A stretch of DNA of 64,000 bases from Mesostigma viride (lineage: Eukaryota; Streptophyta; Mesostigmatophyceae; Mesostigmatales; Mesostigmataceae). The position numbers and the translations under genes were made by a program. Positions 3,664 through 32,959 of the stretch are shown in pieces. A model generated the notes under the pieces. It did no database searches. It was not told the DNA's origin and worked only from the letters and a program-made list of their open reading frames with translations. The stretch covers positions 2,220,287 through 2,284,286 of the forward strand of contig RPFO01000406.1 of the NCBI GenBank assembly GCA_009746045.1. Reading direction: 5' to 3'. Position 1 is the stretch's first letter. Each line of letters starts with the position of its first letter.

Positions 3664-4307
3664 AGTTAGCATTTTGGGCAACCAATATGCTAAGTGGATG
3701 CAGTTTGGAAAGACCTTTCCAACGCCGTGCTGACCGCCTGAAACAGACAAGGGACGAGAAAGATATCAAGTCCCGAAGTCCTAGCCGTCCGTGGCCGACT
3801 AGGGTGCAGTCCTCTGGTGTAGTGGACAGGACACGTGGCAGGCCGTGCCTGCACAGGCTTAGCCTGTCTATCACGTGACTGTGGTCCACGTAGCCAGGAG
3901 GAGCAGCAGCCTGTGACTAGTAGGGTACTGGAGCTGGCACAGGGCTGCAAGGATACTAGGCCTTGCAGGCTTGTGACAGGTCCTGTACTTCCTAGGTTGC
4001 AGAGTCTAGGCAAATCCAGTTCGTCCTGGCTCTGCACTGATGCCAGTGGACGTTGAGGATTTGCTTGCACGCCTGCACGTGCCTCGTCACACCGATGGGA
4101 ACGAGGAACAACGCAAAGGATATAGCTTGGTCATGGGGGATGACCAGCTATCTCGGAAAGCACGAACCGTGGGTGCCACCTTGGTCGTGGAAGTGCCCAT
4201 TGTGGTCGTGGCCTGGTGAACAGATTTAAGGTTGCTGCCTTGCAACATTGGCTAAGACGCGCTGTGAAAGATCAAGAGCTCACATACGTTGGGAGCTCTT
4301 TCTAACT
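3664..4307 (+). repeat. C1 5' LTR
   Basis: 644 bp, begins AGTTAG and ends CTAACT, matching 11505-12146 apart from a few small differences. The sequence just inside it (cgtattattg) lies where a primer-binding site belongs. Confidence 0.95.
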
Positions 4308-4332: not shown

Positions 4333-5474
4333 ATGTCCAACGTGCCGAGGGAACAGGCCATTGAGCCTTCGCAAAGCCAGAGCTCGCAGCCGCAGCTTCG
4401 GGTAGGAGCCCCGGAGCGATCACGACCTTTTCATCCCTACGCTCATCCGAGCACCGCATCAACCTTCGTCCAGGCGGCGTACCTGGCAAGGGGGCTGGCG
4501 AAGAAAGGTTGGGTAGCAGTTTGCGGAACTGCAGCAGGGCCGGCGGCGAGCGACCCCATTGTGATGCAGATTGAGGCTTCGACAGCTCCCGGCGAATTGT
4601 CGCGAGAGGCCGTCGAAAAGTTTGTGTCAATACGGGACGAGCTGTCCTCGACCATTTACGGTCTGGAGGTGGCTCACCAGGGCGGGCACGTGACCGTGTC
4701 GCAGCTGGATTTGGCGCGGGAGGCACTGGGCCAGATCGTGGCCATTGGACTGGGAGCAGCGCGACTGTTCAACCATCAGGTGGCAACGTCTGTGCTGGGC
4801 GCGGGAGTTGAAGTCCCGGACGTGATCAGGCAAGCGCAGGCGCGCGAAGTCGACAACCCCTGGTCGACGGCAGAGGTGGTTTCACAAACGTGCGAACACC
4901 TCGTGAACATTCTTTTGCAGGAGTCACGGGGAACGCAGACCGGTGGGTGATAACCACACGACCATTTGGGATTTGGTCAACACTCGACACACCGCGGGCG
5001 GCGGAACCAGACGCACACGATCCAGTGGTCGAGGTCATCACGGGTCGGGAGGTAACGCCAGAAGACTTCCATTACCAATTCGTTGATCAGCCAGAGGGGA
5101 TCATCGAACGTTCATCTCAGCAGATAGATCAAGGCGACGGTACCACAGAAGGGTACGCTGCACGACGTCGTGCTGAGCTGCACGTCCCGCAAGAGCCCGA
5201 ACACGACTACGGTGGTCGTGGGGCTTGCAACGACAAGCGGGGTGGTGGAACGCGGTGGGTGAGGAACCTTGAGTGGGATCGCTCGAGTGGGAGCGAGCCC
5301 CGGATCCCAGTGGAGAAATCTGCAGACGGGCGACCCGTTAGCAGAGTGTTTGGACCCTACGCCGACGGGAGGACGCCGCTGGCAGCGACGAGGAGCGGCC
5401 AGAGACGCCCATCGCAGCCACTGCTCAAGAGCGAGAGCTGGAGGCAGCGAACCAAGCAGGTGCTGAGTCAGTAG
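4333..5474 (+). CDS. C1 ORF0, leader protein of unknown function (frameshifted)
   Basis: First ORF after the 5' LTR, starting at the ATG at 4333. It is open to 4950 in one frame and continues to 5474 in another, so there is one single-base shift near 4930. The protein matches the leader ORF of C6 (36025-36813) along most of its length. Shared blocks include a hydrophobic stretch around QI(V/I)AI, a VP(D/N)V segment, and the block (T/G)GREV...FVDQPEG about two thirds of the way along. I see no known domain, zinc knuckle, signal peptide or clear membrane segment. Presence in two diverged elements suggests it is a real element protein. It is unlikely to be Gag, because a normal gag follows about 100 bp downstream. 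Confidence 0.72.
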
Positions 5475-5562
5475 CTGGGACGGTGCCCACGGCATCCCCC
5501 AGCGACGCCAGTGCTTGAGTCAGTTCTTCCTTTTTCCTTCGCCTTTATTGTTGTGTCCCCAC

Positions 5563-5576
5563 TTGTATATAATGCC
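5563..5576 (+). promoter_or_regulatory. TATA-like motif at the C1 gag start
   Basis: ttgtatataatgcc spans the gag ATG at 5572. The identical 14 bases are at 36873-36886, at the gag ATG of C6. Conservation between diverged elements suggests an internal promoter or a fixed start context; the sequence does not decide which. Confidence 0.45.
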
Positions 5577-6923
5577 TCGTGGCAAACCGGGCGACGGCGA
5601 CAAGGGCGAGGAGGGGCACCGGCTGGAGGAGCCAGGAGCCTGGGAAGGGCAAGGAGGCGCTGGTGGGAGAGGCGATCCCAGCCAGCGACGGCGATGGGGG
5701 AAAGCGACCAGGGAGCAAGAGGCGACACGAAGACTCGGTGGAGGAGGCGCGCAAGGCGCGGGCGCTGGGGCATCTGATGCAATAACGGTGGCGAATGGGC
5801 AACCTGCCGTGGAGAAGCGTAAGAGGGACCCCTCTGCTGACGGCAATGGTAAGAGGCCTCATGTGGATGTGCTCTCCCCTGTGCCTGCTGGACCAAGTGG
5901 TGCTGTTGTTGTGACACCCGCTGTGGTGGAGCCAGTGAAGGCGCTGCCAGGGTCGAGACCTCACATGAGTGCTGTCACTGTTATGAATGGACAAAAGCCT
6001 CTTAACCCACCACTAGCACAGGAAGCTTTGGACAAGTGGCTAGAGGACATGGAGCTTGTTGTGTTCTCCGTGGACCCCACTGTCAACCTAGTGCAAGTGT
6101 TTCACTCGTCCACGTGCAACAGGGACTCGTCAGAGCGTGTCAGGGAGAAGGCTAGGACTGCTGTCAAGGATAAGCTAACCTGGGCACAGTTCCTGGATGG
6201 GTTGAGGGAGGAGTTCTCTGACAAGGTTCTCAACCTCACCAACTACTACAAGCATCAGTATGACACCTTTGAGATAGTGGGCCCTGTGGCAGAGGAATGG
6301 GCTAGGCTCAACCGTATCAGGGACAAGGGGGCCAAGTATGGCTTCCTGGTCACAGATAGGGCCTTGGCAGACTATTTCCTGGACCGTATGGGTTTGAGTG
6401 TGGATGGGAGGAACGGTGCCCGCATGTTTCTTAACCAGACTGATGGCTCCTTGCGTGCTCTGGAGCTTGTAATCCTCAGCATAAGGAAGCCAGATCCTGC
6501 CTGCAAGGCTATCCAGTCCCATGGCAGCAATGCCACCTCCGCTGTGCAGGGCCAAGGTGATGTCCCCGGGTACCCAGCCCGTGATGGGGCAAGGCCCAAC
6601 AAGCGTAAGCGCTTCAGGCGCCAGAGGCAGGGGCTCAGGGTGGCAAGGGTGCAGGTCCCCAAGGAGGGGTTGGGGGCCAGCAAGCTGGTGGTCAGCAGGG
6701 TAAGGGTGGCCAAGGGCAAGGCAAGGGCCAAGCTCAAGGCAACCAGGGCAAGCAGGGTGGGCAGCCTCAGGGAGGCCAGGGGAAGCCTGGCAAGGGTGGG
6801 GCTGGGTCTGGGAAGAAGGGTGGAGCATGTTTTGTGTGTGGCAAGGAAGGTCACTGGCGTCGTGAGTGTCCTGACAGGAAGGCCAAGCCTGCTGGGGCAG
6901 GAGGCCAGTCTGGGCAGCAGTGA
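5572..6923 (+). CDS. C1 Gag (one frameshift)
   Basis: Starts at the ATG 5572. A basic, low-complexity N-terminus precedes a capsid-like region of about 220 residues that matches C6 Gag closely (for example PLAQEALDKWLEDMEL, and VFHSS...SSERV). A Gly/Gln/Lys-rich linker then leads to one CCHC knuckle, CFVCGKEGHWRREC, at about 6828-6869. The linker and knuckle are in another frame than the capsid part, so a one-base shift lies near 6600. The terminal codon is UGA in the context UGA-CUAG, and the pol frame continues in phase after it. Gag forms the particle that contains the element RNA. Confidence 0.82.
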
Positions 6924-6927
6924 CTAG
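6921..6927 (+). promoter_or_regulatory. UGA-CUAG readthrough context between C1 Gag and Pol
   Basis: The Gag stop TGA is followed by CTAG, and the same frame then stays open into integrase. TGACTAG also ends gag in C6 (40978-40984). UGA followed by CUAG is an established leaky stop context in animal genes and some viruses. Here it would yield Gag plus a Gag-Pol fusion. Confidence 0.65.
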
Positions 6928-9044
6928 CTACATCATCCCCTGTAAATAGTCAATCACCCCTTGGGGAAGGTGTGCTGGATGTACATAAGGACGGGGGTGT
7001 GCCCCTTGTGCAGCACCAAGGGTGTAAAGATGTTGTTCTTCCACTGGATTGCAATAACAATGCTGCAGCTGAATTCCCTATGCCTCATGCAGGTGGTGGG
7101 TCTCCAGCAGGTGCTGGCCTGGAGGGCCAAGGGACCTTGCTGGAAGGGCCTGGAGCGGTCCAGGGTGCAGGGCCTGACTTGGGGCGTCAGGACGGCCTGC
7201 AGGGAAGCCCTGGAACCTCAGGAGTGGATCATGTGTCCCCACACACGGTTCAGACGTCTCGCCAGGTCAGTACTGACAGAGTGCTGAGCTATGCTGAGGC
7301 TGGCCATAGGTTGCATCACATGTTTGGGCATTCTGGGCAGGCAGCAATGTTTGCTTGGAAGCTAGGTAGGGAGCCTTTGTGGGAGGCTTGCCAGGCTGCT
7401 GCTGAGAACTGTGGTTGCCAGGAGAATGCTGTTCACCCACCTCAGTCCCATGCTAGGGAGCCTGCTAGGGAGCGTGGCGACATCCAGATGGATATCCAGC
7501 ATATCAGGGGCTTGTATATATTGGTGGGGGTGGACAGGTTCAGCAGATACAGGCTGATAGACGTTCTGCCTGGTATGCAGGAGCACCACTTGTTGTTGGG
7601 TATGAAGGCCCTGATCCCAGGCTTTGGGGTGTGCAAGAGTGTGCAGGCAGACTTGCAGTTTGACTGTTTGCTCAAGCATCAGGACCAGCTGCCTTGTAAG
7701 CTGGTAGTAGTCCCCAGGGAGAGTCATGGGCAGCAAGGGGCTGTAGAGAGATCCATACGTGAAGTGAAGACAGTGGTGCTAGCAGCAGAGTCAGTGCCAC
7801 TTGTGGCATCTGCCTTAGAGAGGGCAGCCTGGTGTAAGGGGATAGAAGAGCAGCTGAACCACAGGGTTAACTATTACTTTGATGGTGTGGCTGTCTCTCC
7901 CCTGGCCCTGCAGTATAGCTTGTTGCCTGAGAACGTGGTGCAGGCCAGTCTTAGGAAGGCAGATAGGTTATTTGCCCAGCTGAGACGTAAGGACAAGAAC
8001 TGGAATGTGCTGAGGCCTCAGGTGGGGCTGAAGGTCAGGATGTGGAAGGAACCATCTATTCCAGGCAAGCGGGGGAAGTGGCAGGATGGGGTTGTCACTC
8101 GTGTGGAGGAAGCTAACAGATCTTGCCTGGTGGCTTTGGAAAAGGATCCAAGGCACGTGTACAGGTTGTCCTGGGCTCATGTCAAGGAAAGAAGGCCACA
8201 TGCAATCTGGCCTGCAGACGGGCCAGGCCCTCCCAGCTGGGTTGAGGAGCCAGGCCAGAGCCAGGCAGCAGCAGCTAACAATCCTCTGGTGGTGGATGAT
8301 GGTCTGTCCCTGCTGGAAGATGACGAGCAGGAGGAGGCTGCTGAAGCAACTGTCACAAGGCCAGAGGGGACGGGGCAGCCACCTAAGGCCCGGGGGCCTC
8401 TCATGGCGGACGTCATCCGAGCACTCATGCGCAGCAAACATGATCCCAAGGTATCCAAGCTCACGGGGTGGGGGTCGTGCTGGGCAGCTACAATGGAGGT
8501 AGATACCAACTCACAGGTGTCTGTCATCAGGGAAGAGGATGCTGTAGGCTTACAGATGTCCCATCCCAGTTGCCTTGCTGTGTCTGATTTCTCAGGAAAG
8601 GTGTCCATGAAGATCCTTGGGGAAGTGAGTGTGCCTATCTTAGGGGTGCCCACCACGTTCTGTGTGGTAGAGGGCTATCAGGGGCCTGCCATTCTGGGTC
8701 AGAACTTCTTGTGCATGCCAGGGGTTACTTTGACCTCTGATGAGTTGGCACTAGAAGGCAGGGGCAGCCTCCCCCTTGAAAGATATCACTATTCCCAGGG
8801 TCTTGCAGTGGCGGTGAAGGCTGTTAGGAGTCAGCCAGCTGAGGGTCCTCAAGGTCAGGAGCCCATAGCTGAGGACCTGTTGATAATCCCAACCACCTTT
8901 GATCCACGGCAGTTAGGGGTAAACAGGTACCAGATAGCTGCTCACAGTCCTATTCCCTGGCGCCAGCTAGTCGAGATGATGCAAGCCCCAAGATGGCTAA
9001 GGCATGGACTCTTGGCTTTGTTGCTTCTGGGCATGAGTGGATAG
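6924..9044 (+). CDS. C1 Pol, integrase then protease-like domain
   Basis: In phase with Gag after the UGA. A linker of about 115 residues leads to the GAG-pre-integrase His/Cys region (HHMFGH, NCGC) and an rve-type integrase core: first Asp in MDIQHI (7491), second in ADLQF (7650), Glu in GAVERS (7746), spacing D-x31-E. An SH3-like C-terminal segment ending near HVYRLSW follows. About 80 residues later comes a retropepsin-like fold with DTNS at about 8502 and ILGQNFL at about 8692, where DTGA and ILGxDxL would be usual. No protease motif lies between gag and integrase. The frame stops at 9044, inside what should be reverse transcriptase, because of a shift near 8985. Confidence 0.88.
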   Translation, partial: LATSSPVNSQSPLGEGVLDVHKDGGVPLVQHQGCKDVVLPLDCNNNAAAEFPMPHAGGGSPAGAGLEGQGTLLEGPGAVQGAGPDLGRQDGLQGSPGTSGVDHVSPHTVQTSRQVSTDRVLSYAEAGHRLHHMFGHSGQAAMFAWKLGREPLWEACQAAAENCGCQENAVHPPQSHAREPARERGDIQMDIQHIRGLYILVGVDRFSRYRLIDVLPGMQEHHLLLGMKALIPGFGVCKSVQADLQFDCLLKHQDQLPCKLVVVPRESHGQQGAVERSIREVKTVVLAAESVPLVASALERAAWCKGIEEQLNHRVNYYFDGVAVSPLALQYSLLPENVVQASLRKADRLFAQLRRKDKNWNVLRPQVGLKVRMWKEPSIPGKRGKWQDGVVTRVEEANRSCLVALEKDPRHVYRLSWAHVKERRPHAIWPADGPGPPSWVEEPGQSQAAAANNPLVVDDGLSLLEDDEQEEAAEATVTRPEGTGQPPKARGPLMADVIRALMRSKHDPKVSKLTGWGSCWAATMEVDTNSQVSVIREEDAVGLQMSHPSCLAVSDFSGKVSMKILGEVSVPILGVPTTFCVVEGYQGPAILGQNFLCMPGVTLTSDELALEGRGSLPLERYHYSQGLAVAVKAVRSQPAEGPQGQEPIAEDLLIIPTTFDPRQLGVNRYQIAAHSPIPWRQLVEMMQAPRWLRHGLLALLLLGMSG

Positions 9045-9895
9045 TTTCCAACTGTGCAGAACCTGTGGATGAGCTGCCAGAAGTTCACCAGCTGCTCAGA
9101 TTGATGTTTGTCCTCAAGCTCAAGGAGGTAGATGGTGTCCAGGTGCCACATGTCAGACCAGTTGTAACCGAGTATCATGGCACTGGCCAGTTGTTAGATG
9201 AGGAGCTCTATACTCCAGGGATGCTGCATGACACGTGGAGGATTCTGCTGTGTATATTTCTGTCTTTTCTGGTTAAGGGTGTGCCCTATAGCTCTGTGCT
9301 GATTGATTTCAAGAGGGCTTTTCTCAAGGGTGACCAAGATCAGGCTAGGCAGACTTGGAGAGATATCCCTCCTTTCTTTGTGACTGTACCTGCTGTATGG
9401 AGAGCAGAGATAAAGGCCAGGTACCTGAGAATTCTGAAAGGGTTGGAAGGTCTCAGGTCCAGTCCCATTATCTGGAGAAAGAGCCTAGAGAAATTCTTGA
9501 AGAATACTTGTGGGTTTTCTGTGTCTCCAGTGGATCCCTGTTTGTTCCAAGGGTCCCACAATGGCCTTCCTGTCTTTGCCTCACTGCATGGTGATGACCT
9601 GCATCTCATAGGTCCACCAGACTGGGTTGAGGCTGTCTTGGCTAAGATCCAGAAGCGGTTTGAGCTGGGTAAGATACAGCACATGGTGGAGAATGAGCCT
9701 ATGGTCTTCTGTGGCATGCAGGCTACGTTGTTCCAAGCCAAGGGCTCGTGGTTCATCAGGATGGAGGGTGGTAAGGACTACCCACAGCAGATTGTAGATG
9801 CATTGCAGGAGCCCATCACGCAGGCTAGGTGTGCTACCATCAGGGGCATGCTGGCATGGCTTGCAAGTATATGTGCCCCTGACTTGCTGGTTTGA
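8993..9895 (+). CDS. C1 reverse transcriptase (frame-shifted segment)
   Basis: Copia-type reverse transcriptase. The fingers carry FVLKLKEVDG and RPVVTEY. Motif A is DFKRAFLKGD, like the DVKxAFL of copia. LKGLEGLRSSPIIW replaces LYGLKQAPRxW. The catalytic box is SLHGDDLHLIG at about 9581-9613, with HGDD where YVDD is usual; both Asp are kept. The connection to RNase H (GMLAWLASICAPDLLV) is cut by a one-base shift near 9890. It is one base out of phase with the protease-like domain upstream. Confidence 0.9.
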   Translation: MAKAWTLGFVASGHEWIVSNCAEPVDELPEVHQLLRLMFVLKLKEVDGVQVPHVRPVVTEYHGTGQLLDEELYTPGMLHDTWRILLCIFLSFLVKGVPYSSVLIDFKRAFLKGDQDQARQTWRDIPPFFVTVPAVWRAEIKARYLRILKGLEGLRSSPIIWRKSLEKFLKNTCGFSVSPVDPCLFQGSHNGLPVFASLHGDDLHLIGPPDWVEAVLAKIQKRFELGKIQHMVENEPMVFCGMQATLFQAKGSWFIRMEGGKDYPQQIVDALQEPITQARCATIRGMLAWLASICAPDLLV

Positions 9896-10494
9896 GTCGA
9901 CTTACTGATTCCCAGCTGGTTGAGGTGGGTGCTGAGAGTGTGGTGCAGGCTGTCATGATGTCTCCCCCTCTCATACTGGGTCCTGTGGATTTGTACAAGC
10001 CCCTTGACATGGTTCTCTATGTGGACAGTTCTATGGATAATAGGAAGGTCACAGAGGTCAGGGGCAGGGCAGCAGCATTAGTTACCCTGGAGCAAGATCA
10101 CACCTCACTTGTTACCTGGTACAGTCGGTTGCAGAACAGGGTTACACCCAGCAGTGATATTGCTGAGTGCAGGGCAATCTGTGAAGGGCTGCATACTGCT
10201 CTTTACTTGAGGGAGCTCTTCTACCAGCTATGTCAAGTGGCTTCCTGTAGGTTGCAGCTGCACACACTGGTGAGGACTGATAGCATGGGCATGGTGCAAT
10301 TTGTGCACAGGCAGCTGGCCAGGAGCAGGGACCTTGACTACTTGTTGCTCAAGGAGATGTCCTACCTAGCTCACATTGAACATGTGCCTGGTGTGGACAA
10401 CCCTGCAGATGCCCTCACCAAGCTGGAGGAGAAGGCGGAGAGGCAGTACCCCCTGCTCCGTGGGCTCATGGACCCCTTACACGGGCGGCCATAG
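9892..10494 (+). CDS. C1 RNase H
   Basis: Copia-type RNase H: YVDSSMD (first Asp), SSDIAECRA (the Glu of the SSxEAEY motif), RTDSMGMVQF (Asp), RSRDLDYLLLKE, and the ending VPGVDNPADALTK typical of copia Pol C-termini. The enzyme removes the RNA template during cDNA synthesis. The visible frame opens at a TTG, which marks the frameshift rather than a real start. Confidence 0.9.
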   Translation: MSRLTDSQLVEVGAESVVQAVMMSPPLILGPVDLYKPLDMVLYVDSSMDNRKVTEVRGRAAALVTLEQDHTSLVTWYSRLQNRVTPSSDIAECRAICEGLHTALYLRELFYQLCQVASCRLQLHTLVRTDSMGMVQFVHRQLARSRDLDYLLLKEMSYLAHIEHVPGVDNPADALTKLEEKAERQYPLLRGLMDPLHGRP

Positions 10495-11504: not shown

Positions 11505-12146
11505 AGTTAGCATTTTGGGCAACCAATATGCTAAGTGGATGCAGTTTGGAAAGACCTTTCCAACGCCGTGCTGACCGCCTGAAACAGACAAGGGACGAGA
11601 AAGATATCAAGTCCCGAAGTCCTAGCCGTCCGTGGCCGACTAGGGTGCAGTCCTCTGGTGTAGTGGACAGGACACGTGGCAGGCCGTGCCTGCACAGGCT
11701 TAGCCTGTCTATCACGTGACTGTGGTCCACGTAGACCAGGAGGAGCAGCAGCCTGTGACTAGTGGGTACTGGAGCTGGCACAGGGCTGCAAGGATACTAG
11801 GCCTTGCAGGCTTGTGACAGGTCCTGTACTTCCTAGGTTGCAGAGTCTAGGCAAATCCAGTTCGTCCTGGCTCTGCACTGATGCCAGTGGACGTTGAGGA
11901 TTTGCTTGCACGCCTGCACGTGCCTCGTCACACCGATGGGAACGAGGAACAACGCAAAGATATAGCTTGGTCATGGGGGATGACCAGCTATCTCGAAAGC
12001 ACGAACCGTGGGTGCCACCTTGGTCGTGGAAGTGCCCATTGTGGTCGTGGCCTGGTGAACAGATTTAAGGTTGCTGCCTTGCAACATTGGCTAAGACGCG
12101 CTGTGAAAGATCAAGAGCTCACATACGTTGAGAGCTCTTTCTAACT
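11505..12146 (+). repeat. C1 3' LTR
   Basis: 642 bp, preceded by the purine-rich tract aaaagaagaaagggttgg at 11487-11504, the expected plus-strand primer. Confidence 0.95.
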
Positions 12147-16704: not shown

Positions 16705-17579
16705 ACCATCGCCAACGGACGGTGACAATTGGCACGATCGATGCGTGCCCTAGAAGGGAACAGTGACCATGTATACAGTCATTTATAAGTTCCGGCTACA
16801 GGAGTAGCCGCCTCTTTTGTTGGGGGGGGGAGGTGTGTTGCACGGATGCAACATGCCGTTTGTGGTAAATATAAATTATCCGTCCCGGTCGATCGGCGCC
16901 GACCGTAATCCGGCGCCAGTGCCGAGGCCATAGTAGTTGGCAGCCGAGGCAACCCGTGTGGAAGTATAAGTATAGAAGTTTTGCTGACGAACTTGGCCTT
17001 TGCGCCGTAGGCAGACCTAGCGCCTGAACGGGAGTTACGGGACAGCCAAGTGGCACTGCACATGCGTTATGATGGTACCTACGGACATTTGGATATTTTT
17101 CAGGAGAGGCCTCTAGCCGTACTGGTCTTTAATGTGTTCTAGACGGTTCGAGAAGCCCGTCCCCGCGGACCTCACGTCATGCCTGGTTGGCAGCGCCAGG
17201 CGCAGCCGCCAACGGGGACGAAGGGACAAAATAGGAAGGCACGAGCTATGCCAGCAATCCGGACCTTGTATCGTAATTTACCACGTTGCTCTACAGATTA
17301 TTTACCATCGCTTAATCCTGGAGTGTAAATCTCCTGTGGGCTCGAGTGTGAATCCCTCGCCTACTGGGTGTAAGTCTTCCCGCATTGAGTGTTTTAATCT
17401 GTGTGGTGACATTGTAATATACGAAACCGGTTTTCCGGGTTTGAGCTTATTCGTATTGTGTGACGAGTATTCTTAAGCCACCATCGTGCGCTGTGACGCA
17501 TAGGAAGTCAAAGGTCTTTCGCATTCATTCTCAATCATTAAGGCGCTATTCTAAATAGCCATACGTGTTAAACGTGGTA
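16705..17579. other. Possible polypurine tract and LTR remnant; no gene
   Basis: A G9 tract ending gggaggtg lies near 16821-16834. It is followed by tgttgcacggatgcaaca, an inverted repeat beginning TG as a gypsy LTR would. No second copy exists in the window, so an LTR is only suspected. The remainder has no supported ORF. Confidence 0.3.
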
Positions 17580-17625
17580 GCTGGAGTCCTGGGGTGGTTA
17601 CCCAGGTTGATGAAGCTAGCCACGC

Positions 17626-19350
17626 ATGCTTGGTCAGCATGGAGGACGAACCAAAGCATGTACAGTACACCGGCTGAGTTGGTCATATGTCAAGCCTAAC
17701 CTGATGAATGAGGGCAGTCAGGCACAAGGCTCACAGGATCTGCAGGATTTTCAGGTCCCAAGTGACATCACTGATGCAACGACCACATCTGTTGCAGGGG
17801 AATCTGTCGGCCCTGGCCAGGTTGCAGAGGTACCTGTTGAACAGGCTGCAAGGTCAACAGCTGGGGAGTCAACTGTCAAGCCCAAGGCTCTAACCAAGCC
17901 CAGGGGGACAAGTTTGGCTGGATTGATTGGGGCTCTGCAAAGGGCCAAGAAGCAGCCCAAGGTAGCCAAGCTCAGGTGGCATGACAATCTGGGGCTGGAC
18001 ACTGCCTTAGAGGTAGACACTAATTCTCAGGTCTCCATCATTGGGACCAGAGCTGCAGCAGGGTACAGCATGACTGAGCCCAGCTATCAGTTTGTGTCTG
18101 ACTTCAGTGGCGGGGTACACGTGAAGGTACTGGGTGAGGTATCTATTCCTATCCTTGGACAGGACACTGCATTTTGTGTCTTGGAGGGCTATCAGGGACC
18201 TGCTCTTCTGGGGCAGAATTTCCTATGCCAGGATGGGGTAGTGATCACGTCCTCTCTCCTGACTAAGGAAGGGGCTGGTCAGGTCCCACTGATTAATTTC
18301 AGGACCACTCACCTATCACGTGCAGTAACCAGGTCGGTTAAGCGTGTGCAAGTGTGCCAGGGGCAGGAGCCCTTGGTTGATGACCTCATATTGCCAGCTG
18401 CTAGTCATCCAAGCAGTTTGGGCATTGGTCCTCACTCACTTGCTGGACACAGCCCTATCAACTACCAAGGCCTGGTGAAGCTCATGTCCTCTCCCATTAT
18501 GTGTCCCCAGGTCACACTGGGTCTGATTAAATCTGGGGAGGACTGGATCTCCAAGAAATGCGTGGAACCTGTCAATGACCTGCCTCCTGCACGACGTCTA
18601 CTCAAGCTCAAGTTTGTCATCAAGATGAAGGAGGTGGACGGGGTCAAGGTACCACATGTCAGGCCAGTGCTGAATGAGTTCAAGGGTACTGGTGAGTGCA
18701 CTGCTGAGGAGTTGTATACCCCTGGCATGCTGCATGACACTTGGAGGCTGCTGCTGTGTGTATTTCTAGGCCTTCTCAACAAGGGCTTGGACTATGGCTC
18801 AGTGGTGGTAGACTTCAAGAGGGCATTTCTGGAGGGGGATGCAGATGTGGCACAGGAAAAGTGGGAGGGCAAGACGCCTTTCTATGTCAGGGTGCCTGCT
18901 GTATGGAAAAGGGACATTCACACTGAGTTCCTTAAAATCCTCAAGGGCCTGGAGGGCCTGAGGTCAAGTCCAATAATCTGGAGGGAGACTCTCAACCGTT
19001 TCCTGAAGGAGCATTGCAACTTGAAGGTCTCTCCTGTAGACCCCTGTCTGTTTCTGGGGCAATGGGAAGGCCTACCAGTGTATGCTTCGCTGCACGGGGA
19101 TGACCTACATCTGATAGCTCCCACGTCGTGGCTTAAGGAGCTGATCTCCATCATTAAGTCCAAGTTTCCTCTGGGTAGGGAGCAATGGCAGGTGGAGAAT
19201 GAGCCTCTACTGTTTGTGGGCATGGAGGCCACACTGGTGAAGAAGGGGGGGGAGTGGCGTATGCTGCTGCAGGTGGGGGCAATGATTATCAAGAGACCCT
19301 CATTAGCAAGCTTCCTCCAGTCATCACACAGGCCCTGTGTCCCATGGTGA
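17626..19350 (+). CDS. C2 integrase end, protease-like domain and reverse transcriptase
   Basis: The first 25 residues match the end of C1 integrase (RLSWSYVK). The retropepsin-like domain follows, with DTNSQVSII at about 18016 and LLGQNFL. Protease and reverse transcriptase are in one uninterrupted frame here, confirming that protease sits directly before RT. RT has LKFVIKMKEVDG, DFKRAFLEGD, GLEGLRSSPIIW and the box SLHGDDLHLI (HGDD at 19093-19104). A one-base shift in the G-rich stretch near 19270 moves the RNase H connection to another frame. No start codon of its own is expected. Confidence 0.9.
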   Translation: MLGQHGGRTKACTVHRLSWSYVKPNLMNEGSQAQGSQDLQDFQVPSDITDATTTSVAGESVGPGQVAEVPVEQAARSTAGESTVKPKALTKPRGTSLAGLIGALQRAKKQPKVAKLRWHDNLGLDTALEVDTNSQVSIIGTRAAAGYSMTEPSYQFVSDFSGGVHVKVLGEVSIPILGQDTAFCVLEGYQGPALLGQNFLCQDGVVITSSLLTKEGAGQVPLINFRTTHLSRAVTRSVKRVQVCQGQEPLVDDLILPAASHPSSLGIGPHSLAGHSPINYQGLVKLMSSPIMCPQVTLGLIKSGEDWISKKCVEPVNDLPPARRLLKLKFVIKMKEVDGVKVPHVRPVLNEFKGTGECTAEELYTPGMLHDTWRLLLCVFLGLLNKGLDYGSVVVDFKRAFLEGDADVAQEKWEGKTPFYVRVPAVWKRDIHTEFLKILKGLEGLRSSPIIWRETLNRFLKEHCNLKVSPVDPCLFLGQWEGLPVYASLHGDDLHLIAPTSWLKELISIIKSKFPLGREQWQVENEPLLFVGMEATLVKKGGEWRMLLQVGAMIIKRPSLASFLQSSHRPCVPW

Positions 19351-20006
19351 GGGGCATGGTTGCTTGGGTGGCAGGCATTTCCAGGCCAGACCTTATGGTC
19401 ATAGCCAGGTTGCCTGATGACATGCTGATGGAGCTAGGGTCTGCCAAGGTGGCTGATCAGGTCAGGGCTTCGTCTGGCATTCTGTTGTCTGCAGTGGATT
19501 TATCACAACCCATTTGCATGGAGCTGTATGTGGATAGCTCAATGGACAGCAGGCAGGTCTCCAAGGTCAGGGGCAGGGCTGCAGGGCTCTTTGTGCTCAG
19601 ACAGGAAGGCCTGGGGAGTTTGGTAAGCTGGTTTAGTCGCCTGCACAAACGGGTGGCTGTCAGCAGTGATGTGGCAGAATGCAGGGCTATTTGTGAAGGC
19701 ATTCACACAAGCCTTTATCTGAAGGAGTTGCTTCATCAGATGACTTCTAACACTCCTTGGCCACTTCAGGTTACCACTCTTCTCAAAACAGACTCCATGG
19801 GGATGGTGCAGTTTGTGCACAGGCAGATGGCCAGAAGTAGGGACTTGGATTATCTCCTTCTTAAGGAATTGTCCTCCTTGGCCAATATTGAGCATATCCC
19901 TGGGGTTGACAATCCTGCTGATGCTTTGACCAAGCTAGTGCAGAAGGCAGCAGTGCAATACAAGGTTCTTCAGTCTCTGATGGACCCATCTCAGCAAGCT
20001 GTCTAA
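19254..20006 (+). CDS. C2 RNase H
   Basis: After the frameshift: the connection (GMVAWVAGISRPDLMV), then RNase H with YVDSSMD, SSDVAECRA, KTDSMGMVQF, RSRDLDYLLLKE and VDNPADALTK. It ends 28 residues after ADALTK, as C1 does. It carries the second and third catalytic carboxylates expected for copia RNase H. Confidence 0.9.
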   Translation: MAYAAAGGGNDYQETLISKLPPVITQALCPMVRGMVAWVAGISRPDLMVIARLPDDMLMELGSAKVADQVRASSGILLSAVDLSQPICMELYVDSSMDSRQVSKVRGRAAGLFVLRQEGLGSLVSWFSRLHKRVAVSSDVAECRAICEGIHTSLYLKELLHQMTSNTPWPLQVTTLLKTDSMGMVQFVHRQMARSRDLDYLLLKELSSLANIEHIPGVDNPADALTKLVQKAAVQYKVLQSLMDPSQQAV

Positions 20007-23278: not shown

Positions 23279-23623
23279 AGTTGAGTAACTCTAGAGCCCT
23301 AGGATCTGGCTCTAAGTTCCCCATGTCCGTCCGCACGCCTTCCGCTAGCGTCCGCTAAGCCGCCGGCTATAATCCGGCGGTCCGATGCGGTCGACCGGTC
23401 TAAGGGCGGCGCCTAGGGCCGGCGCCACCTAGGCCCCAGTCCGGGGCCTTATCCGGGTCGGTACGGACAGCTAGCTTGTCCCACGGTTACGGCTAACCGG
23501 ATAGGCTTTGCTGGCTAAGACATAAACCAGTGGTTGGCCAGCTCCGACGGCAGTTCTCTGTGTTCACCTTATCCCAAGCTCAACGTGACCGACCGCCATA
23601 GCTGAGCCGGTCGGGCTTTAACT
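23279..23623 (+). repeat. C3 5' LTR
   Basis: 345 bp, nearly the same as 28899-29253. The next bases, tgtattcata, are shared with C7 and probably belong to the primer-binding site. Confidence 0.95.
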
Positions 23624-23642
23624 TGTATTCATAAAAATCCCG

Positions 23643-26426
23643 ATGGCTTCCAGTACACGGAGCCGCACGGGCGAACACACAGATACGCCAAGTGGCGAGG
23701 CCGCAGGGTCCGTCCTGCCACGCTTTAGTGCGGACGAGGCCACGAGGTTGATGCAAACCCTCGTGGCGCAACCTGAACTGGCCAAGCAGTTCAAGCATCT
23801 GATGCTTGCTGCTGACGATGCACTGAATCGCGGCCCTCTCAAGCAAACGGAGGTGCCCGCGGATCTACCTGCCGACTATACGGCGGACGACGCAGCAGAT
23901 TTTCTAGCTGCTCTCAAGCGTCTGCGCGATGGACGCGCAGACAAAGATTCGGAGCTGATTGGCAAGTTCCGTGCAGTATTCTGCAGTACAACAAAGCACC
24001 CAAACATTGCCAATCTAGTTCGCATTGCGGACGACAACAAACAAACCTGGGAAGTTTTTTACAACGGTCTAGATGCCCACTTGTCGCGGTCTAAGGAAGA
24101 GGCCGACGAGCAAGCCTTCAATGACTTCGAGGGCTATGCAGTTAATAAGGCAAATTTGCCCGGGGCTGCACGTGATTTCCAGGTCTTCGTGCACAAGCAC
24201 AAGCTGCTAGATACTCTCAAGCCCATTTTCCTGTGCAATCGATTTCTCAAGAAATGCGACCTGTCGTCGGATGTGCATCTGACCATAGCGACGGAACTCA
24301 AAAAGAAGAGTGCTGTCAGTTTCGACGAGGGCATGCTGTATTTAATCTCATGCTTCAAGAGTGCGCAGTCCAAGCCGGCTGCCTCGGCTGCTCTGCCATC
24401 CCTGCGCAAGGTGGATGCCGGCGCGTCTTCTTCTTCAGGCGCAGAGGCTCCAATTACGCGGTCGGAGCTTACGGCCATCCTGAAAAAGGTCGTCGGCCAC
24501 GGCAACAACGGGGGCCAGCGAGGGCGCAAGCGCGGGCATGGTGGCGACGCCAAGCAGGGTGATCATCCCCCGGCCAAGCGGCAGCAGGGGGCGTCTACTG
24601 ACCGCAAGCAACGCTGTGAGCGCTGCTTCGGACGTCGCCATGTCCGGGATGACTGCCGAGTTCGCCCGGACCTGGAGCTCGAGGACAACCTTTGCCGCAA
24701 GTGCCACGACGTTCTGCGTGGTCACAGCGTGGAGGCGTGCAAGGCCAAGCGCATCGTCGTCCACGGCACACGCGAGGAGTGGGCAGAGCGACGGGCAGCA
24801 CGAAAGTCAGGTGAGAGCACGCTCGATACCCCTTCTTTTGCTCAATGCGTCACGCTGAACCGGGCCGTCGTAGAGCCTGACGTCGTTCCTAAAAGCAACG
24901 TGACTGCATCCTCTGTCTCATTCCGTGATGTGCTCACGCAATCCGTTGATGCTGCTCTGGCTCTGTCGCGCCAGGATCACGTGCTTCCTGAGCACGGGTC
25001 TACAATGCGTGACCTAAGCAATGTGGTGTCTTCTAGGTCGGGTGTGTACAACGCCGAGCGACCAAGCACTACTGCAGCACCCCAGCTAGATACTGGGGCG
25101 GTTGGGCCTATGAGGAATGTTGTGACAGTGCAAGAGAATGCTGGGCGGGCAGATGTTCTCGGTACACACCACCCTAGTGTGGATCTTCACATTGGCAAGG
25201 TGCTCACACGGGCGGCCTTTCGTGCAGCCTCTGAAGCTGCCCAGTTAGCCAATGTCACTACCCCAGTAGTCACCCCACCTGTTGAGAATCCTGACAATGC
25301 CACTGCACCTCAGGCTGTCACCCTGAAACTGTTAGCATACCAGATGCACCGTGCATACGGGCATGAGGCCCAAGCCGAGGTAGAGGGGGCACACATGTTA
25401 GGGGCACCTTTATACAACGAGCTGAAGAATGTGCGTGCTCAGTGTCCTGCCTGCATCAAGATCAGGAAGAAGTCGCGTAGGCGTCATGCCAAGACTCCAC
25501 CCTTGGAGCGAGGGTACCTTGTGGGGGATGTCATGCACATGGAAGGGGGGGACACCTATTTCATAGTCAAGGATAGGTTCAGCAAGGCCACCTACATTGA
25601 GCCGCTGCCTCACATGTTTGAGGCTGACCTGCACAGGGCTATCAAGATCAGCCTGGCTTTCTTTCATCCCGTAGTGGAGCTCATGCTAGACCAGCAGTTC
25701 CGCTGTGTGCAAGGTTTGCCGGGGATGGAGGCCGTGGTCATCGTGGGGCGTGAGGATCACGGCAATATGGGCATGATAGATCGCACTGTAAGCTATGTCA
25801 AGACTGTGGCAGCCAAGCGACAGGATAACCCACATGGCAAATCCTACGCGGTCAAGACGGCGTGGTGCAAGGAGCTCATGCATGTGTGCAACCATAGGCA
25901 CGTGCTTGATGTCAAGGGCTTTGGGCTAGTCACGCCTCGGGGGCTGTCAGCGGGCACCTACTCACCCGAGGTAGTAGAGGCATACCAACAGCATCTACAG
26001 GATACCGCCGCCAAGCTGCGGCTCAAGGATGCCACGCTGCCTGATTTGTCTAGCGCTTTTGAGGTCGGGCAGTTGGTCATGTTCCACAAGGAGAGCTCGC
26101 CCAGCGGCAAACGGGGCACCATGCAGGGGCCTGGGGCCATCACAAAGTTAGACTGGCCGCTGCGGGTCATAGACATAGAGTGGAATGATCGGGTGTATAG
26201 GGTACCATGGGCATCGGTGGCAGGCTATAAGCAAGGGGATAGCATGGAGAGTGAGCTGGCAGCCAACAGGGCACTGGGGTGGGTAGTGAAGGATAATGCG
26301 CCTGTCGTAGCATCTGAGGTGGTACCCCACGGGTCGCTCCCAGGGGCAGACACAGCTACACCCCCCCCTCCCCTGGGCCCCAATATGACCCCGTGGATGG
26401 GTGGGATGAGGATGGGGTGGGTTTGA
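23643..26426 (+). CDS. C3 Gag-integrase fusion, 927 residues
   Basis: One uninterrupted frame from the ATG at 23643. Residues 1-270 are helical and capsid-like. A basic linker leads to zinc knuckles CERCFGRRHVRDDC and CRKCHDVLRGHSVEAC at about 325-375, then a spacer of about 180 residues. The GAG-pre-integrase motif (HRAYGH ... CPAC) and the integrase core follow: Asp in GDVMHMEG, Asp in MLDQQF, and GMIDRTV where the catalytic Glu should be, so the third carboxylate is Asp (D-x29-D). The C-terminal module (FEVGQLVMFHKE) follows. There is no protease and no stop codon between Gag and integrase, so the polyprotein must be processed by the downstream protease or used as a fusion. Confidence 0.9.
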   Translation: MASSTRSRTGEHTDTPSGEAAGSVLPRFSADEATRLMQTLVAQPELAKQFKHLMLAADDALNRGPLKQTEVPADLPADYTADDAADFLAALKRLRDGRADKDSELIGKFRAVFCSTTKHPNIANLVRIADDNKQTWEVFYNGLDAHLSRSKEEADEQAFNDFEGYAVNKANLPGAARDFQVFVHKHKLLDTLKPIFLCNRFLKKCDLSSDVHLTIATELKKKSAVSFDEGMLYLISCFKSAQSKPAASAALPSLRKVDAGASSSSGAEAPITRSELTAILKKVVGHGNNGGQRGRKRGHGGDAKQGDHPPAKRQQGASTDRKQRCERCFGRRHVRDDCRVRPDLELEDNLCRKCHDVLRGHSVEACKAKRIVVHGTREEWAERRAARKSGESTLDTPSFAQCVTLNRAVVEPDVVPKSNVTASSVSFRDVLTQSVDAALALSRQDHVLPEHGSTMRDLSNVVSSRSGVYNAERPSTTAAPQLDTGAVGPMRNVVTVQENAGRADVLGTHHPSVDLHIGKVLTRAAFRAASEAAQLANVTTPVVTPPVENPDNATAPQAVTLKLLAYQMHRAYGHEAQAEVEGAHMLGAPLYNELKNVRAQCPACIKIRKKSRRRHAKTPPLERGYLVGDVMHMEGGDTYFIVKDRFSKATYIEPLPHMFEADLHRAIKISLAFFHPVVELMLDQQFRCVQGLPGMEAVVIVGREDHGNMGMIDRTVSYVKTVAAKRQDNPHGKSYAVKTAWCKELMHVCNHRHVLDVKGFGLVTPRGLSAGTYSPEVVEAYQQHLQDTAAKLRLKDATLPDLSSAFEVGQLVMFHKESSPSGKRGTMQGPGAITKLDWPLRVIDIEWNDRVYRVPWASVAGYKQGDSMESELAANRALGWVVKDNAPVVASEVVPHGSLPGADTATPPPPLGPNMTPWMGGMRMGWV

Positions 26427-26496: not shown

Positions 26497-27000
26497 GTGG
26501 CCTCGCCGGAGGGTCAGGGTCCTGCCCATGCGCCTCGCCCACCTAGGGACCTGGCTTCAACGGTCACGGCCTTGTGGCGTGCTCAGGCGCTTAAAGCGAA
26601 AGCTGCATCAGGGGTGGCTCAGGTCAAAACTCTCTCACAGGGGGTCAGGCCGGTTAAGTCAGCCTTGTTTCCTACGTGTAGACCGTGGCAGCTGGTGGCT
26701 GTGGACACGCAAGCATCCGTGTCTATTATCTCTCGTCGGGCAGCCACCCTGTATCCAGTGCTAGAGTCGCCGTACAAATCGGTGACCGACTTTGCAGGCA
26801 CTTCGGCATATCAAGTTACCGGGATGGTGGTGCTGCCGGTGTTGGGCATTGACACGCCGTTTCACGTCGTGGATGGCTACGAGGATGTGGCCTTGCTGGG
26901 CGAACCTTTCGTATCATACCCGGGGTTCTCAGTGTCCGCTGACTTGCTGTCAGTCGCGGGGGTGGGCAGCATCCCGCTTCGCGAGTACCACGCTTCAAGT
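26497..27000 (+). CDS. C3 protease-like domain
   Basis: After integrase, in another frame: VAVDTQASVSII at about 26698, VTDFAGTS, VLGIDTPFHVVDGY and LLGEPFVSYPG. The active-site glycine is replaced by Gln. Single-base shifts near 26380-26500 separate it from integrase, and another near 26985 separates it from RT. The visible frame opens at a GTG, so that is not a natural start. Confidence 0.8.
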
Positions 27001-27005
27001 TTGCT

Positions 27006-28517
27006 TTGTGGCGCGACGCGTTCATTCGAGCCAAGGAGCAGTGGCGAGAGCGCGAGGTCTACCGAGGATTGGAGAGTGTGCCAGCCGGGGCCACGCGGTT
27101 GCGGTTGAAGTTCGTGCTCACCTACAAGCCGGACGAGACCAACTCTTCGGTGGTGTTCCGGGTTAGGCCCGTGGTCACGGAGACGAAGGGGTCCTCCCCG
27201 CTGGATGCCAAGGATCTTTATACCCCTGGGCTCAACCATGTTTCGCATCGGCTACTGACGGTCATCTACTTGGGCAAGCGGAACGCGGGCAAGGACTACG
27301 GGATGTGGTGCGGTGACTTTCAGCGGGCATTCCTCCACAGCGACGCTGGGGTCGCGCAGCAAACATGGCAAGGCACCCGCTACGTGGTGAAGGTCCCGGT
27401 GGTCTGGCAGGATGGCACCATTGGCAGCGAGTATATCGAGCTGTTGACAGGGGTGGAGGGGCTGCAGAGCTCTCCCATCATCTTCCGCATTTCCGCGGAG
27501 GAGGTCTTGCAGAGCTTAGGGGCCACGTACCATCGCGCTGATCCTAACTTCTTTGTGGTCCCCACCGGCGTCCCTGGCGAGCCAGCCCTCTTCGTGTGGC
27601 ATGGCGATGACTTCAAGCTGGTGGCACCTCGCACATTTGCTACCCAATTTCTTGCTGCAGTGGCGGCTAAGTTTCCCCTGGGCAGGGCGGTGGATCATGA
27701 GGAGGGTAAACCCGTGGTGTTTTGCGGCGTGCAGTCTACGTTGCAGCGGGATTCGCGTTCTGGCGAATGGGTCATGCACATGCAGGATAGCCGCAACTAT
27801 GTGGTTGACCTGCTGGCCGACCTCCCGTCCCCGCTGTTGGCGACCCATGGGCCCTCGGTTAAGGGCAAGCTCGGGTGGTTGGCGGACACGGTGGCACCTG
27901 ATTTGGCAGTGCTCGCTCGCCTGCCCGATGATGTGCTGGAAGGACTAGGGTCCATTCATGTTCGGCGGCAGCTGGCCATGACGCCCGGCATTGTGCTTCG
28001 TGGGCTCGATTGCTCACAGCCGGTGCACCTCGAGATAGTGACGGATGCTAATCTAGAGACGCGCACAGTCAGCCAAGTGCGGGCTCGCATGGGGGCACTG
28101 TTCTTTATCAGCAATGAGGGCCAGCCTGGCATGTTGTTAGATTGGTACTCGCGCTTGCACAGCCGCATTGCCACTAGCCCCAACACGGCTGAATGCCGGG
28201 GCATTGTTTCAGCTATCTCACATGGCATGTGGCTGCGGTACTTGCTGGGTTGGGTATTTGGCTCGTGTGGGTTCACTCTTCACTGGACTAGCACGGTGCA
28301 CACTGACTCACAAAGTTGTTTGGCCTTCCTTGACAATCCCTATGCGCGGTCACAGGACGTTGATTACCTCGTACTCGCTGAGGCGGCCTCCTGCGTCACG
28401 CGTCTCCAGCACATCGCGGATGAACTCAATCCCGCGGATGCACTCACCAAGGAGGCGCGGGAGGCTGCCCCGCAGTACGCAGTGTTGCGCAAGCGCATGA
28501 CGATGCAACACCCGTGA
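27006..28517 (+). CDS. C3 reverse transcriptase and RNase H
   Basis: One 503-residue frame. RT: LRLKFVLTYKPDE, RPVVTETKG, motif A GDFQRAFLHSD, LLTGVEGLQSSPIIF, and the catalytic box FVWHGDDFKLVAP (HGDD at 27600-27611). Connection: KGKLGWLADTVAPDLAV. RNase H: IVTDANLET, SPNTAECRG, HTDSQSCLAF, RSQDVDYLVLAE and ELNPADALTK. All catalytic carboxylates are present, so apart from the HGDD box nothing looks inactivated. Confidence 0.93.
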   Translation: MWRDAFIRAKEQWREREVYRGLESVPAGATRLRLKFVLTYKPDETNSSVVFRVRPVVTETKGSSPLDAKDLYTPGLNHVSHRLLTVIYLGKRNAGKDYGMWCGDFQRAFLHSDAGVAQQTWQGTRYVVKVPVVWQDGTIGSEYIELLTGVEGLQSSPIIFRISAEEVLQSLGATYHRADPNFFVVPTGVPGEPALFVWHGDDFKLVAPRTFATQFLAAVAAKFPLGRAVDHEEGKPVVFCGVQSTLQRDSRSGEWVMHMQDSRNYVVDLLADLPSPLLATHGPSVKGKLGWLADTVAPDLAVLARLPDDVLEGLGSIHVRRQLAMTPGIVLRGLDCSQPVHLEIVTDANLETRTVSQVRARMGALFFISNEGQPGMLLDWYSRLHSRIATSPNTAECRGIVSAISHGMWLRYLLGWVFGSCGFTLHWTSTVHTDSQSCLAFLDNPYARSQDVDYLVLAEAASCVTRLQHIADELNPADALTKEAREAAPQYAVLRKRMTMQHP

Positions 28518-28898: not shown

Positions 28899-29253
28899 AG
28901 TTGAGTAACTCTAGAGCCCTACACTGTAGGATCTGGCTCTAAGTTCCCCATGTCCGTCCGCACGCGGCCTTCCGCTAGCGTCCGCTAAGCCGCCGGCTAT
29001 AATCCGGCGGTCCGATGCGGTCGACCGGTCTAAGGGCGGCGCCTAGGGCCGGCGCCACCTAGGCCCCAGTCCGGGGCCTTATCCGGGTCGGTACGGACAG
29101 CTAGCTTGTCCCACGGTTACGGCTAACCGGATAGGCTTTGCTGGCTAAGACATAAACCAGTGGTTGGCCAGCTCCGACGGCAGTTCTCTGTGTTCACCTT
29201 ATCCCAAGCTCAACGTGACCGACCGCCATAGCTGAGCCGGTCGGGCTTTAACT
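28899..29253 (+). repeat. C3 3' LTR
   Basis: 355 bp, preceded by the purine-rich aaagaacaaaagagtatgtcgg. Confidence 0.95.
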
Positions 29254-30255: not shown

Positions 30256-31944
30256 CCGTGATGGTACAGCTGCACACACGCGTGCTTACCGCCAGCCCGG
30301 GGAAGCTGGACCGTCTAACCTGTCAAACAGGGAGGACATTATTGATCAACTTCAGCTGGCGCAAGCCATGCTTGAAGCGGATCATCCGCTGTCTCCAGGC
30401 GAGCAGGGGAGGCTGGCCGACACGGTGGCTAGGTTGGTTGCATCGCTGAAGCCAGCCAAGCGACGGGCACAGGCTGAGGCATGTGCACCACACCCCAAGC
30501 GCAGGAGCCGGATGAGGGGGAGGATGGTGGAGAAAGGGGGGGCAACCAGGGCAGGGGAGGACACGGCGACCAAGAATCTGCACCAGCGCAACGAGCGGGC
30601 GGGGAGCAGCAGCAGCAACAGCAACAGCAGCAGCAGCCACCCGCAGGAACGACAACCACAACCAACATGGCCTTGTGTAGGCCCAGGTTTGATCCTAAGA
30701 AGAAAGAAGATAAGCTAGTATTCCCGGGGCTGCCAGAGGGTCATACCCAGGATGAGGCTAGGGAATGGTTGTTCAAGCTCTCACATGCTTATGCTAGTGA
30801 TAATGTGCGTGACTGGTTTGCATCCCTGCGTGCATCCACACCTATACATCAATCTGCCAAGCCCATCCAACAGTTGGTACAATTGTACCAAAAGCGTGCC
30901 AGCAGTGGGGTGGATGTGGCAGAAAATGTTTTGTGGGCACAGTTCATGGTAGACCTTAGGGCACTCGTCACCACGGGGGAGCACTTAGAAGTACTTAAGG
31001 GCTTCCAGTGGATAGAGGCGTACAAGGTCAACAAGCGTGACTATGTCAGTGACAGTAAGAAGTATGTCATGTACATAGAGGGGGATGAGGAGCTTAAGAA
31101 GCTCAATGCAAAATACCTAGTGCACCTATGGTTGCAAAAGGCAAAACTGGACCCTACCACGCTGTCAGTCATACTGGCAGGTCTGAAGGACAAGTGGGAG
31201 GACTTCAGGAAAGCAATGGCGTATGTGCAGCAGTGCCTAGAGCCATTTGCTGCTGCAGCCAAGGATGTTAAGGTGAAGGGGAGGAGGCCTCAGGTACGGG
31301 GCTCTCTAAAAAGCAGTTGCAGTCGCTGGTGGCCCAGCTAGGTGAAGGCGGTATTAGGGGGGGATAAAAACAAAAACAATAAAAGTGGGGGAGGTGGAAA
31401 TAAGGGGGGGGGGAAGAATAATAACAACAAAAACAGAAAACAAAGTGGGGGAGCTAGCAAGCCAGCGGGTGCTAAGCCAGCAGGGGGGGACAAGAGGTTG
31501 CCTCATGACCCCACCAAACATTGCACTAGGTGCCTATGTAAGGGGCACCTAAAGGATGATTGCTGGAAGGGCAAACCTGATTATGGCTCTGACGTGGATG
31601 TTTGTCCTGGTTGTTGGAAAACACGTCACCCCATTGCAGCAGGAGCGCGCTGCACGGCTCCCAGGCATAACAAGAACACGCCGGGGCGCTACTACCGCGC
31701 GGGGGCAGCAGACCAGGGAGACTCCTGTAAGCTACCCTCACCATTTTTCACAAATGGTTACCTGCTACCTTCTGTCTGCCAAGTGTTGCCTGAGTGTGAG
31801 GATGTGGATTGGGAGGTGGCATATGATATGACACTGTCACACATGATTTGTGACCCCACCATAGCTTCCCTTAGTGCAGCAGCAGAAAACGGTAATCACG
31901 TATGGTGCTCTAGCAGAGCAACTGCACAAGGTTATGGGCCATGA
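30215..31944 (+). CDS. C4 Gag (several frameshifts)
   Basis: Begins MFYYLSQ at 30215, shifts frame near 30480 into a Gln-rich stretch (Q10 near 30610-30640), then a capsid-like region homologous to C5 Gag: LPEGHTQDEARE, VLWAQFMVDLRAL and DKWEDFRKAM correspond to LPEGYTREQ, VWEAFMKELTDL and KYWEDMKEAL of C5. A Lys/Asn/Gly-rich linker follows and then two zinc knuckles, CTRCLCKGHLKDDC and a second Cys-rich motif starting CPGC. Frame changes near 31280 and at the G8 run near 31355 look like homopolymer indels. Confidence 0.75.
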
Positions 31945-32959
31945 GGCTGTGGCTGAAAGGCTAGCCAATAAAATACAAGGCCATGATCTGGAACAGATGT
32001 GCAGGCACGTACGTAAGCACTGTGAGCAATGTCAGCTATATGCTCCTAAGCCCAGGAAATGGCATGTGGCCACACCACCACTGGCTAGAGGCAAACTGGT
32101 TGGGGATGTTATACACGTGGTTAAGGACACGGTATACTACCTAGTCATAAAGGATGCCTGGTCAAGGTTTGTGGTAGTGGAGCCTCTGCCTGGAATGGAT
32201 AAAGAGCAGCTGCACACAGCTTTACAGATAGCCTTGGCACGTTTTCACCCCATTGAAAAAGTAATGCTGGATCAGCAGTTCCTCTGCATTCAGGACAGGA
32301 ATGATCTGCCCAAGATAGAAGTGTCTGGGGCTCAAGATCATGAACGTCAGGGGTTGGTAGAACGTACCATGAGAGCCATCAGGGATGTGATAAGAAAAAT
32401 GCCATCCAGGTTGGCTGACTCTGGTAGCTATGCTGACAGGGCATCTTGGGCAGCAGGGGTGACTACCCAGCTAAACGCCAAACCAATAATGTCCTCACCT
32501 TTTGGGGAAATTACCCCAACTGGCCTTCAGTCAGGCAGCTATGCTTCAGAGGTGCACACTCACTACAACACACAAAGGCAGCACTTAGCCAAGTTGCTGG
32601 CAAAGAAAGACAAAAATAATGCCAGGCCTGTGTTTGAAGTGGGGGACCATGTGTTGTTTTGCAGAGAGGGTGATAGAGGAAGAGCACACTCTGCAAGATG
32701 GCACGGTCCAGCTGTAGTCACTAAGATTCATGAAGAAGGGACTGCAGTCACTATACAACATGACAGAGAGCGTGTGGTCAGCAAGCATAGACTCAAGCTT
32801 TATTACCCACCACTGGCAGACGTGTCAGGGGTAGAATTCTTGGACATGGATTCAGAGCAGGAGTCTGGTGGATTGATCTCACCTGCAATGAATTGGCTAG
32901 GGACGTCATTGATGCAAGCACTAGTACGTCAGAGTAGAAGCTCCTGTATTCCTCAGTAG
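31874..32959 (+). CDS. C4 integrase
   Basis: GAG-pre-integrase motif (HKVMGHEA ... CEQC), then the integrase core: first Asp in GDVIHVVKD, second in MLDQQF, Glu in GLVERT, spacing D-x29-E. The C-terminal module has VFEVGDHVLFCREG and WHGPAVVTKI, like an SH3 fold. It overlaps the end of the gag zinc-knuckle frame by about 70 bp, with a shift there. The canonical DNGxEF is replaced by DQQF. Confidence 0.87.
   Translation: MQQQKTVITYGALAEQLHKVMGHEAVAERLANKIQGHDLEQMCRHVRKHCEQCQLYAPKPRKWHVATPPLARGKLVGDVIHVVKDTVYYLVIKDAWSRFVVVEPLPGMDKEQLHTALQIALARFHPIEKVMLDQQFLCIQDRNDLPKIEVSGAQDHERQGLVERTMRAIRDVIRKMPSRLADSGSYADRASWAAGVTTQLNAKPIMSSPFGEITPTGLQSGSYASEVHTHYNTQRQHLAKLLAKKDKNNARPVFEVGDHVLFCREGDRGRAHSARWHGPAVVTKIHEEGTAVTIQHDRERVVSKHRLKLYYPPLADVSGVEFLDMDSEQESGGLISPAMNWLGTSLMQALVRQSRSSCIPQ

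Follow-up and report, generated by a model that had tools for sequence, protein, structure and literature searches.

The order of the pol domains is the textbook character dividing copia from gypsy long terminal repeat (LTR) retrotransposons. Ty1/copia elements (Pseudoviridae) are arranged Gag-PR-INT-RT-RH, with protease (PR), integrase (INT), reverse transcriptase (RT) and RNase H (RH) following Gag, and Ty3/gypsy elements (Metaviridae) and retroviruses are arranged Gag-PR-RT-RH-INT. A 64,000-nucleotide stretch of contig RPFO01000406.1 (assembly GCA_009746045.1, positions 2,220,287 to 2,284,286 of the forward strand), referred to below as the window, raised the question of whether a family of copia-like elements carries its protease behind the integrase and, if so, where such a protease came from. 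The DNA originates from Mesostigma viride (class Mesostigmatophyceae), a green alga that diverged early among the streptophytes, close to the base of the line leading to land plants. The analysis points to a lineage of recently active M. viride LTR retrotransposons with the order Gag-INT-PR-RT-RH, whose ILG-type protease with a DT[QN] triad is most likely a working dimeric aspartic protease; a probability of roughly 0.7 was assigned to this reading.

The window is made up of nested LTR elements, one Ty3/gypsy element split by copy C1 and seven copies or fragments of the family (C1-C7, a numbering of this analysis that may not match that of an earlier note on the same DNA). The window was translated in six frames, and each of the 1527 pieces 25 or more residues long was scanned with INT, PR, RT and RH profiles derived from the family. 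The scan recovered six integrases and a C-terminal fragment of another, six proteases, and four domains each of RT and RNase H. The protease lay 3' of the integrase in all six loci holding both, on both strands. RT followed the protease in four of these loci (C1, C2, C3 and C6), and the scan found no RT behind the protease of C4 or C5. The earlier note had placed the protease between integrase and RT in C1-C6; its position behind the integrase holds for all six, and the RT behind it is literally present only in those four. C7 reaches the window end before any protease position. The same arrangement was seen in annotated M. viride sequences, with INT-PR-RT-RH in the gene model P0005 (1157 aa) and PR-RT-RH in the protein P0002 (816 aa).

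The stretch at 6924-10494, in C1, consists of three open reading frames (ORFs), with integrase and then protease in 6924-9044, RT in 8903-9895 and RNase H in 9883-10494. C1 lies on the plus strand and comprises a 5' LTR (3664..4307), a gag ORF (5467..6927, with tblastn relatives in the C5 gag), integrase (7254..8210, 469.8 bits) and a protease with VDTN and AILG motifs (8415..8861, 213.1 bits), C1 itself being part of both profiles. These are followed by an RT with HGDD (9086..9730, detected by the RT profile and by Pfam RVT_2 with E 1.3e-5 and 25.3 bits, under the cut-off of 31.6), RNase H (9883..10494, RH profile) and a 3' LTR (11505..12146, from the LTR pair alignment). In C2, also on the plus strand, only a C-terminal integrase fragment is left (17570..17665, 21.9 bits), and PR (17926-18372) and RT (18595-19236, HGDD) share the uninterrupted ORF 17620..19350, as the earlier note had stated, with RNase H at 19392..19988 by profile.

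C3, on the plus strand, has LTRs at 23279..23623 and 28899..29253 (pair alignment), a gag+integrase ORF (23622..26426, INT at 25278-26240 by profile), a protease with VDTQ and ALLG (26563..27030, PR profile) and an RT+RNase H ORF with HGDD (26943..28517, RT at 27093-27743; profiles). C4 (plus) has an integrase at 31868..32809, found by the INT profile and by Pfam rve (E 1.3e-5, 25.8 bits, below the cut-off), and a protease with VDTQ and ALLG at 33105..33551 (PR profile), which was the domain modelled. In C5 (plus) the integrase (41343..42200, INT profile) is separated by the nested C6 from the protease with VDTN and AILG (51004..51357, 191.2 bits). C6 runs on the minus strand from its 5' LTR (50554..51009) through a gag+integrase ORF (46514..49237, INT at 46544-47452 by profile), a protease split over two frames (45760..46190, 113.6 and 23.5 bits), RT with HGDD (44847..45425) and RNase H (44107..44694), both by profile, to the 3' LTR (42526..42983), its LTRs also being defined by pair alignment. 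C7 (plus) contributes a gag ORF (61100..62383) with CCHC-like knuckles recognised by eye and an integrase (62812..63780, INT profile), the remainder lying outside the window. A single frame for gag and integrase had been claimed for C3 and C5; it was found in C3, and the second such copy is C6 here, possibly the one called C5 before.

The gag and gag-INT pieces of C1, C3, C4, C5, C6 and C7 (26 targets) gave no match to the family PR profile or to a copia-protease profile, in agreement with the earlier claim that no protease lies between gag and integrase in these copies. A hidden protease before the integrase was rejected, the PR profiles being silent on these pieces and the whole-window family scan adding only matches with E of at least 3. 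A stray DTGA (residue 490 of the C3 ORF starting at 23622) and a DSGS (residue 66 of P0004) are linker strings scored by neither profile. The frames between domains, considered for programmed frameshifting, vary from copy to copy, for which decay, assembly indels or introns may be responsible. The annotated M. viride protein P0001 corresponds to C1, being identical in 263/263 RT and 102/102 RNase H residues, and continues from RT into RNase H at 9883-9895, where C1 shifts frame in the window; splicing, a strain difference or an assembly error may account for this.

The LTR pairs of C1, C3 and C6 are identical at 640/641, 345/345 and 455/456 aligned bases (with 4, 10 and 2 gap columns), and 5-bp duplications flank them (GCATG, GAGGG and GCTAC, respectively). 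These three copies have therefore transposed recently. All three, the elements with both LTRs in view, combine paired LTRs, a target-site duplication and gag and pol domains, and their LTRs end in AGTT..AACT rather than TG..CA. The C1 gag ORF matched no Pfam family at E<=1, and gag was therefore assigned by position and by the zinc-knuckle (CCHC) motifs of sister copies. The gag part of the C6 ORF 46514-49237 contains a long asparagine run.

By its profile matches the RT is of copia type (RVT_2). The lineage RT profile scored 18-48 bits on seven of eight copia references, which had been drawn from a search with that very profile and are biased toward a match, and gave no score on the gypsy element of the window. 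RT pieces scored 17.8-30.7 bits with Pfam RVT_2, below its cut-off, and had no match to Pfam RVT_1. For the RT, this agrees with the label of a copia-like lineage given in the earlier note. The active site reads HxDD in all seven lineage sequences (HGDD in C1, C2, C3 and C6) and YVDD in the copia references. In a 15-row RT tree, built without CoDi, GalEa and Osser, the lineage stood on one side of a 99/99 branch with a stem of 3.38, the sole gypsy outgroup being placed on a branch longer than 6.

The integrase gave a different picture. The family INT profile scored at most 2.6 bits on copia references and 17.7 bits on a retroviral integrase from the PDB. On the pieces of the gypsy element, in which C1 interrupts the core, it reached 0.7 bits. 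When the integrase model was compared with known structures, foamy virus ranked first and Ty3 27th by Foldseek E-value, and Ty3 ranked first, tied with foamy virus, by VIA. These results are no more than suggestive of a Ty3/retrovirus-like integrase that is not recognisably of copia type, and the structure ranking leaves room for a copia integrase because we know of no complete one in the PDB. The third acidic residue is Asp in C3 (25278-26240) and C7 (62812-63780) and Glu in the other six of eight sequences.

The domain behind the integrase has, by prediction, a retropepsin fold. The modelled C4 domain found its best structural match in the retropepsin domain of Ddi1, so that structure prediction, named in the earlier note as a way in which its proposal could fail, came out on the side of a retropepsin. 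Such a domain could be a copia element's own protease that moved behind the integrase while its motifs drifted from ILS to ILG and from DTG to DT[QN]. The copia-type RT speaks for such a true relocation, as does a profile-profile comparison in which copia proteases came slightly above the gypsy one (19.6 vs 17.0), with both probabilities below 3% and a single gypsy protease in the set. The C-terminal motif, however, is ILG or LLG in 8/8 lineage proteases and of the ILS type in 5/5 copia references carrying a protease; in the available part of PMC2642776, ILG is given as canonical for the clan together with DT/SG, and Ty1/copia proteases usually have ILS. The copia-protease profile reached at most -0.5 bits on the family proteases, and among seven members Pfam Pol_BBD matched none and gag-asp_proteas three, weakly. 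A true relocation is thus considered unlikely. Because of the motif difference, the family protease does not appear to be simply a copia protease in a new place, and a replacement, or a backbone in which the protease already stood beside RT, fits better; we infer that the lineage either exchanged a copia-type protease for another kind or never had one, rather than shifting it to a new position. Of the distinct group with a relocated protease proposed earlier, the distinct Gag-INT-PR-RT-RH group stands, in the window loci and in P0005, and the relocation is not supported.

Whether this protease works is a separate matter. The triad is DT[QN] in 8/8 sequences (DTN in C1, C2 and C5; DTQ in C3, C4, C6, P0002 and P0005), the Gly of D[ST]G being replaced, which departs from the canonical DT/SG of the available part of PMC2642776 and could mean that the order is real and the domain non-catalytic, with a structural role, maturation being left to a host protease or not occurring at all. 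On the other side, Asp and Thr are retained in 8/8, and the ratio of nonsynonymous to synonymous substitution rates (dN/dS, about 0.08-0.25) shows purifying selection on the domain as a whole, as it does for INT and RT. For C1 vs C5 the PR value was 0.146 (NG86) or 0.080 (YN00), and by NG86 it was 0.234 for C1 vs C2 and 0.254 for C4 vs part of C6, next to 0.137 for INT (C1 vs C5), 0.244 for RT (C1 vs C2) and 0.065 for RH (C1 vs C2); all are rough, since dS was at least 1.3 throughout and a YN00 estimate was obtained for one of six pairs. Neither point is decisive, and a dead protease is regarded as a minority possibility, somewhat less doubtful than relocation. It is, by comparison, very improbable that the order is an artefact of elements inserted into one another or of rearrangement within individual copies. 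Nesting is real (C6 within C5, C1 within the gypsy element) and frames are often broken, but the common order recurs in six loci on both strands and in P0005, with proteases 32-76% identical to that of C1 among the family copies, which agrees with the earlier dismissal of chance rearrangement. Moreover, removal of C6 left an empty site reading in frame into the C5 protease, and C5 therefore had an uninterrupted frame there at the time of the C6 insertion.

Several points weigh against the reading of a recently active Gag-INT-PR-RT-RH lineage with a working protease. The lineage is known from one species and one further protein (P0003). The protease model is of modest confidence (mean predicted local distance difference test score of 62, 7 sequences), every Pfam match of PR, INT or RT falls short of its curated cut-off, and both the lost Gly and the slight lead of copia proteases in the profile-profile comparison count on this side. 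Most copies are frame-broken, with breaks differing among copies and no intact copy in view. P0002 and P0005 are gene models in which exon joining is possible, which touches the order read from P0005.

Under the favoured reading, transcription would start from the LTR and a Gag-INT(-PR-RT-RH) polyprotein would be made. The protease would pair up once the integrase has been made, cutting at either end of INT and ahead of RT, and the dimer would free Gag, INT, RT and RH. Spread would take the usual course of a Gag particle, reverse transcription and joining of the cDNA by integrase with a 5-bp stagger. Because gag and INT share an ORF in C3 and C6, integrase might, speculatively, be about as abundant as Gag, with PR-RT-RH made at a lower level.

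With Ty1/copia the family shares an integrase before RT, an RT that profiles place in RVT_2, and LTRs with 5-bp duplications. It differs in the protease behind the integrase, the ILG type with DT[QN], the HxDD site, the AGTT..AACT ends and an integrase that is unrecognised by similarity to copia references. The protease directly before RT-RH, its ILG type and an integrase model fitting that of Ty3 and foamy virus recall Ty3/gypsy elements and retroviruses, whereas the integrase stands before PR-RT-RH and not after RNase H, and the family RT profile is silent on the gypsy element of the window. Among known folds, the protease model comes closest to the domain of Ddi1, a cellular protein with D[ST]G whose protease is likewise of the ILG kind, but the family domain sits in a retrotransposon and carries DT[QN]. 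The elements are filed here as LTR retrotransposons in mechanism, related to copia by RT and departing from the copia domain order. There is about an even chance that they represent a third pol architecture, deep-branching or mosaic, in which a copia-type HxDD RT is combined with an ILG-type DT[QN] retropepsin and a Ty3/retrovirus-like integrase; this would be a sign that the RT has been combined with INT and PR in arrangements beyond those of the two main groups.

The nearest known case of an odd integrase position, as far as the available parts of PMC2774666 and PMC8220671 go, is the Gmr1 clade of Ty3/gypsy, with INT upstream of RT, a precedent for a pol order departing from that of the RT's own family. 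Gmr1, however, has a gypsy RT in copia-like order, whereas the family described here has a copia-type RT and the protease after INT. A rearrangement of integrase has also been proposed to mark the deepest division among LTR elements (PMC2774666, in the part available). Protein searches, with about 8000 candidates scored per search, located the lineage in M. viride and in P0003. Family queries found no relatives among viral contigs and genome contigs, and scans of the viral contigs for copia and gypsy reference elements came up empty. Titles and the beginnings of abstracts, most subscription journals being outside the scope, held no report of the Gag-INT-PR-RT-RH order, of Mesostigma LTR elements or of an HxDD site, and a literature text search for order strings such as INT-PR-RT returned no papers.

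A recently active lineage that differs in domain order and pairs an ILG-type protease with a copia-type RT offers a concrete case for testing how pol polyproteins were assembled. The changed catalytic motifs of PR and RT bear on how much departure from D[ST]G and YxDD is tolerated, and the order itself on whether maturation requires a protease right behind Gag. Searches that filter on the canonical domain order, on TG..CA termini or on Pfam thresholds would likely miss or misfile such elements, since the Pfam matches here were all below cut-off.

The remaining features of the window concern other elements and repeats. The pol gene of the Ty3/gypsy element interrupted by C1 occupies 424-3663 and 12149-12979, its joined flanks being in frame through the integrase. 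Inside the C5 gag region, at 37681-40449, lies an extra LTR pair of 748 and 747 bp, 99.9% identical and with a possible duplication AGTGT. Behind the C4 protease, at 34169-35977, two identical 421-bp direct repeats are spaced at 1388 bp. At 21463-22036, an 8-bp unit is repeated in a long tandem array, and an ORF on the minus strand at 59818-60708 resembles, by eye, the end of an RT protein of the long interspersed nuclear element (LINE) type.

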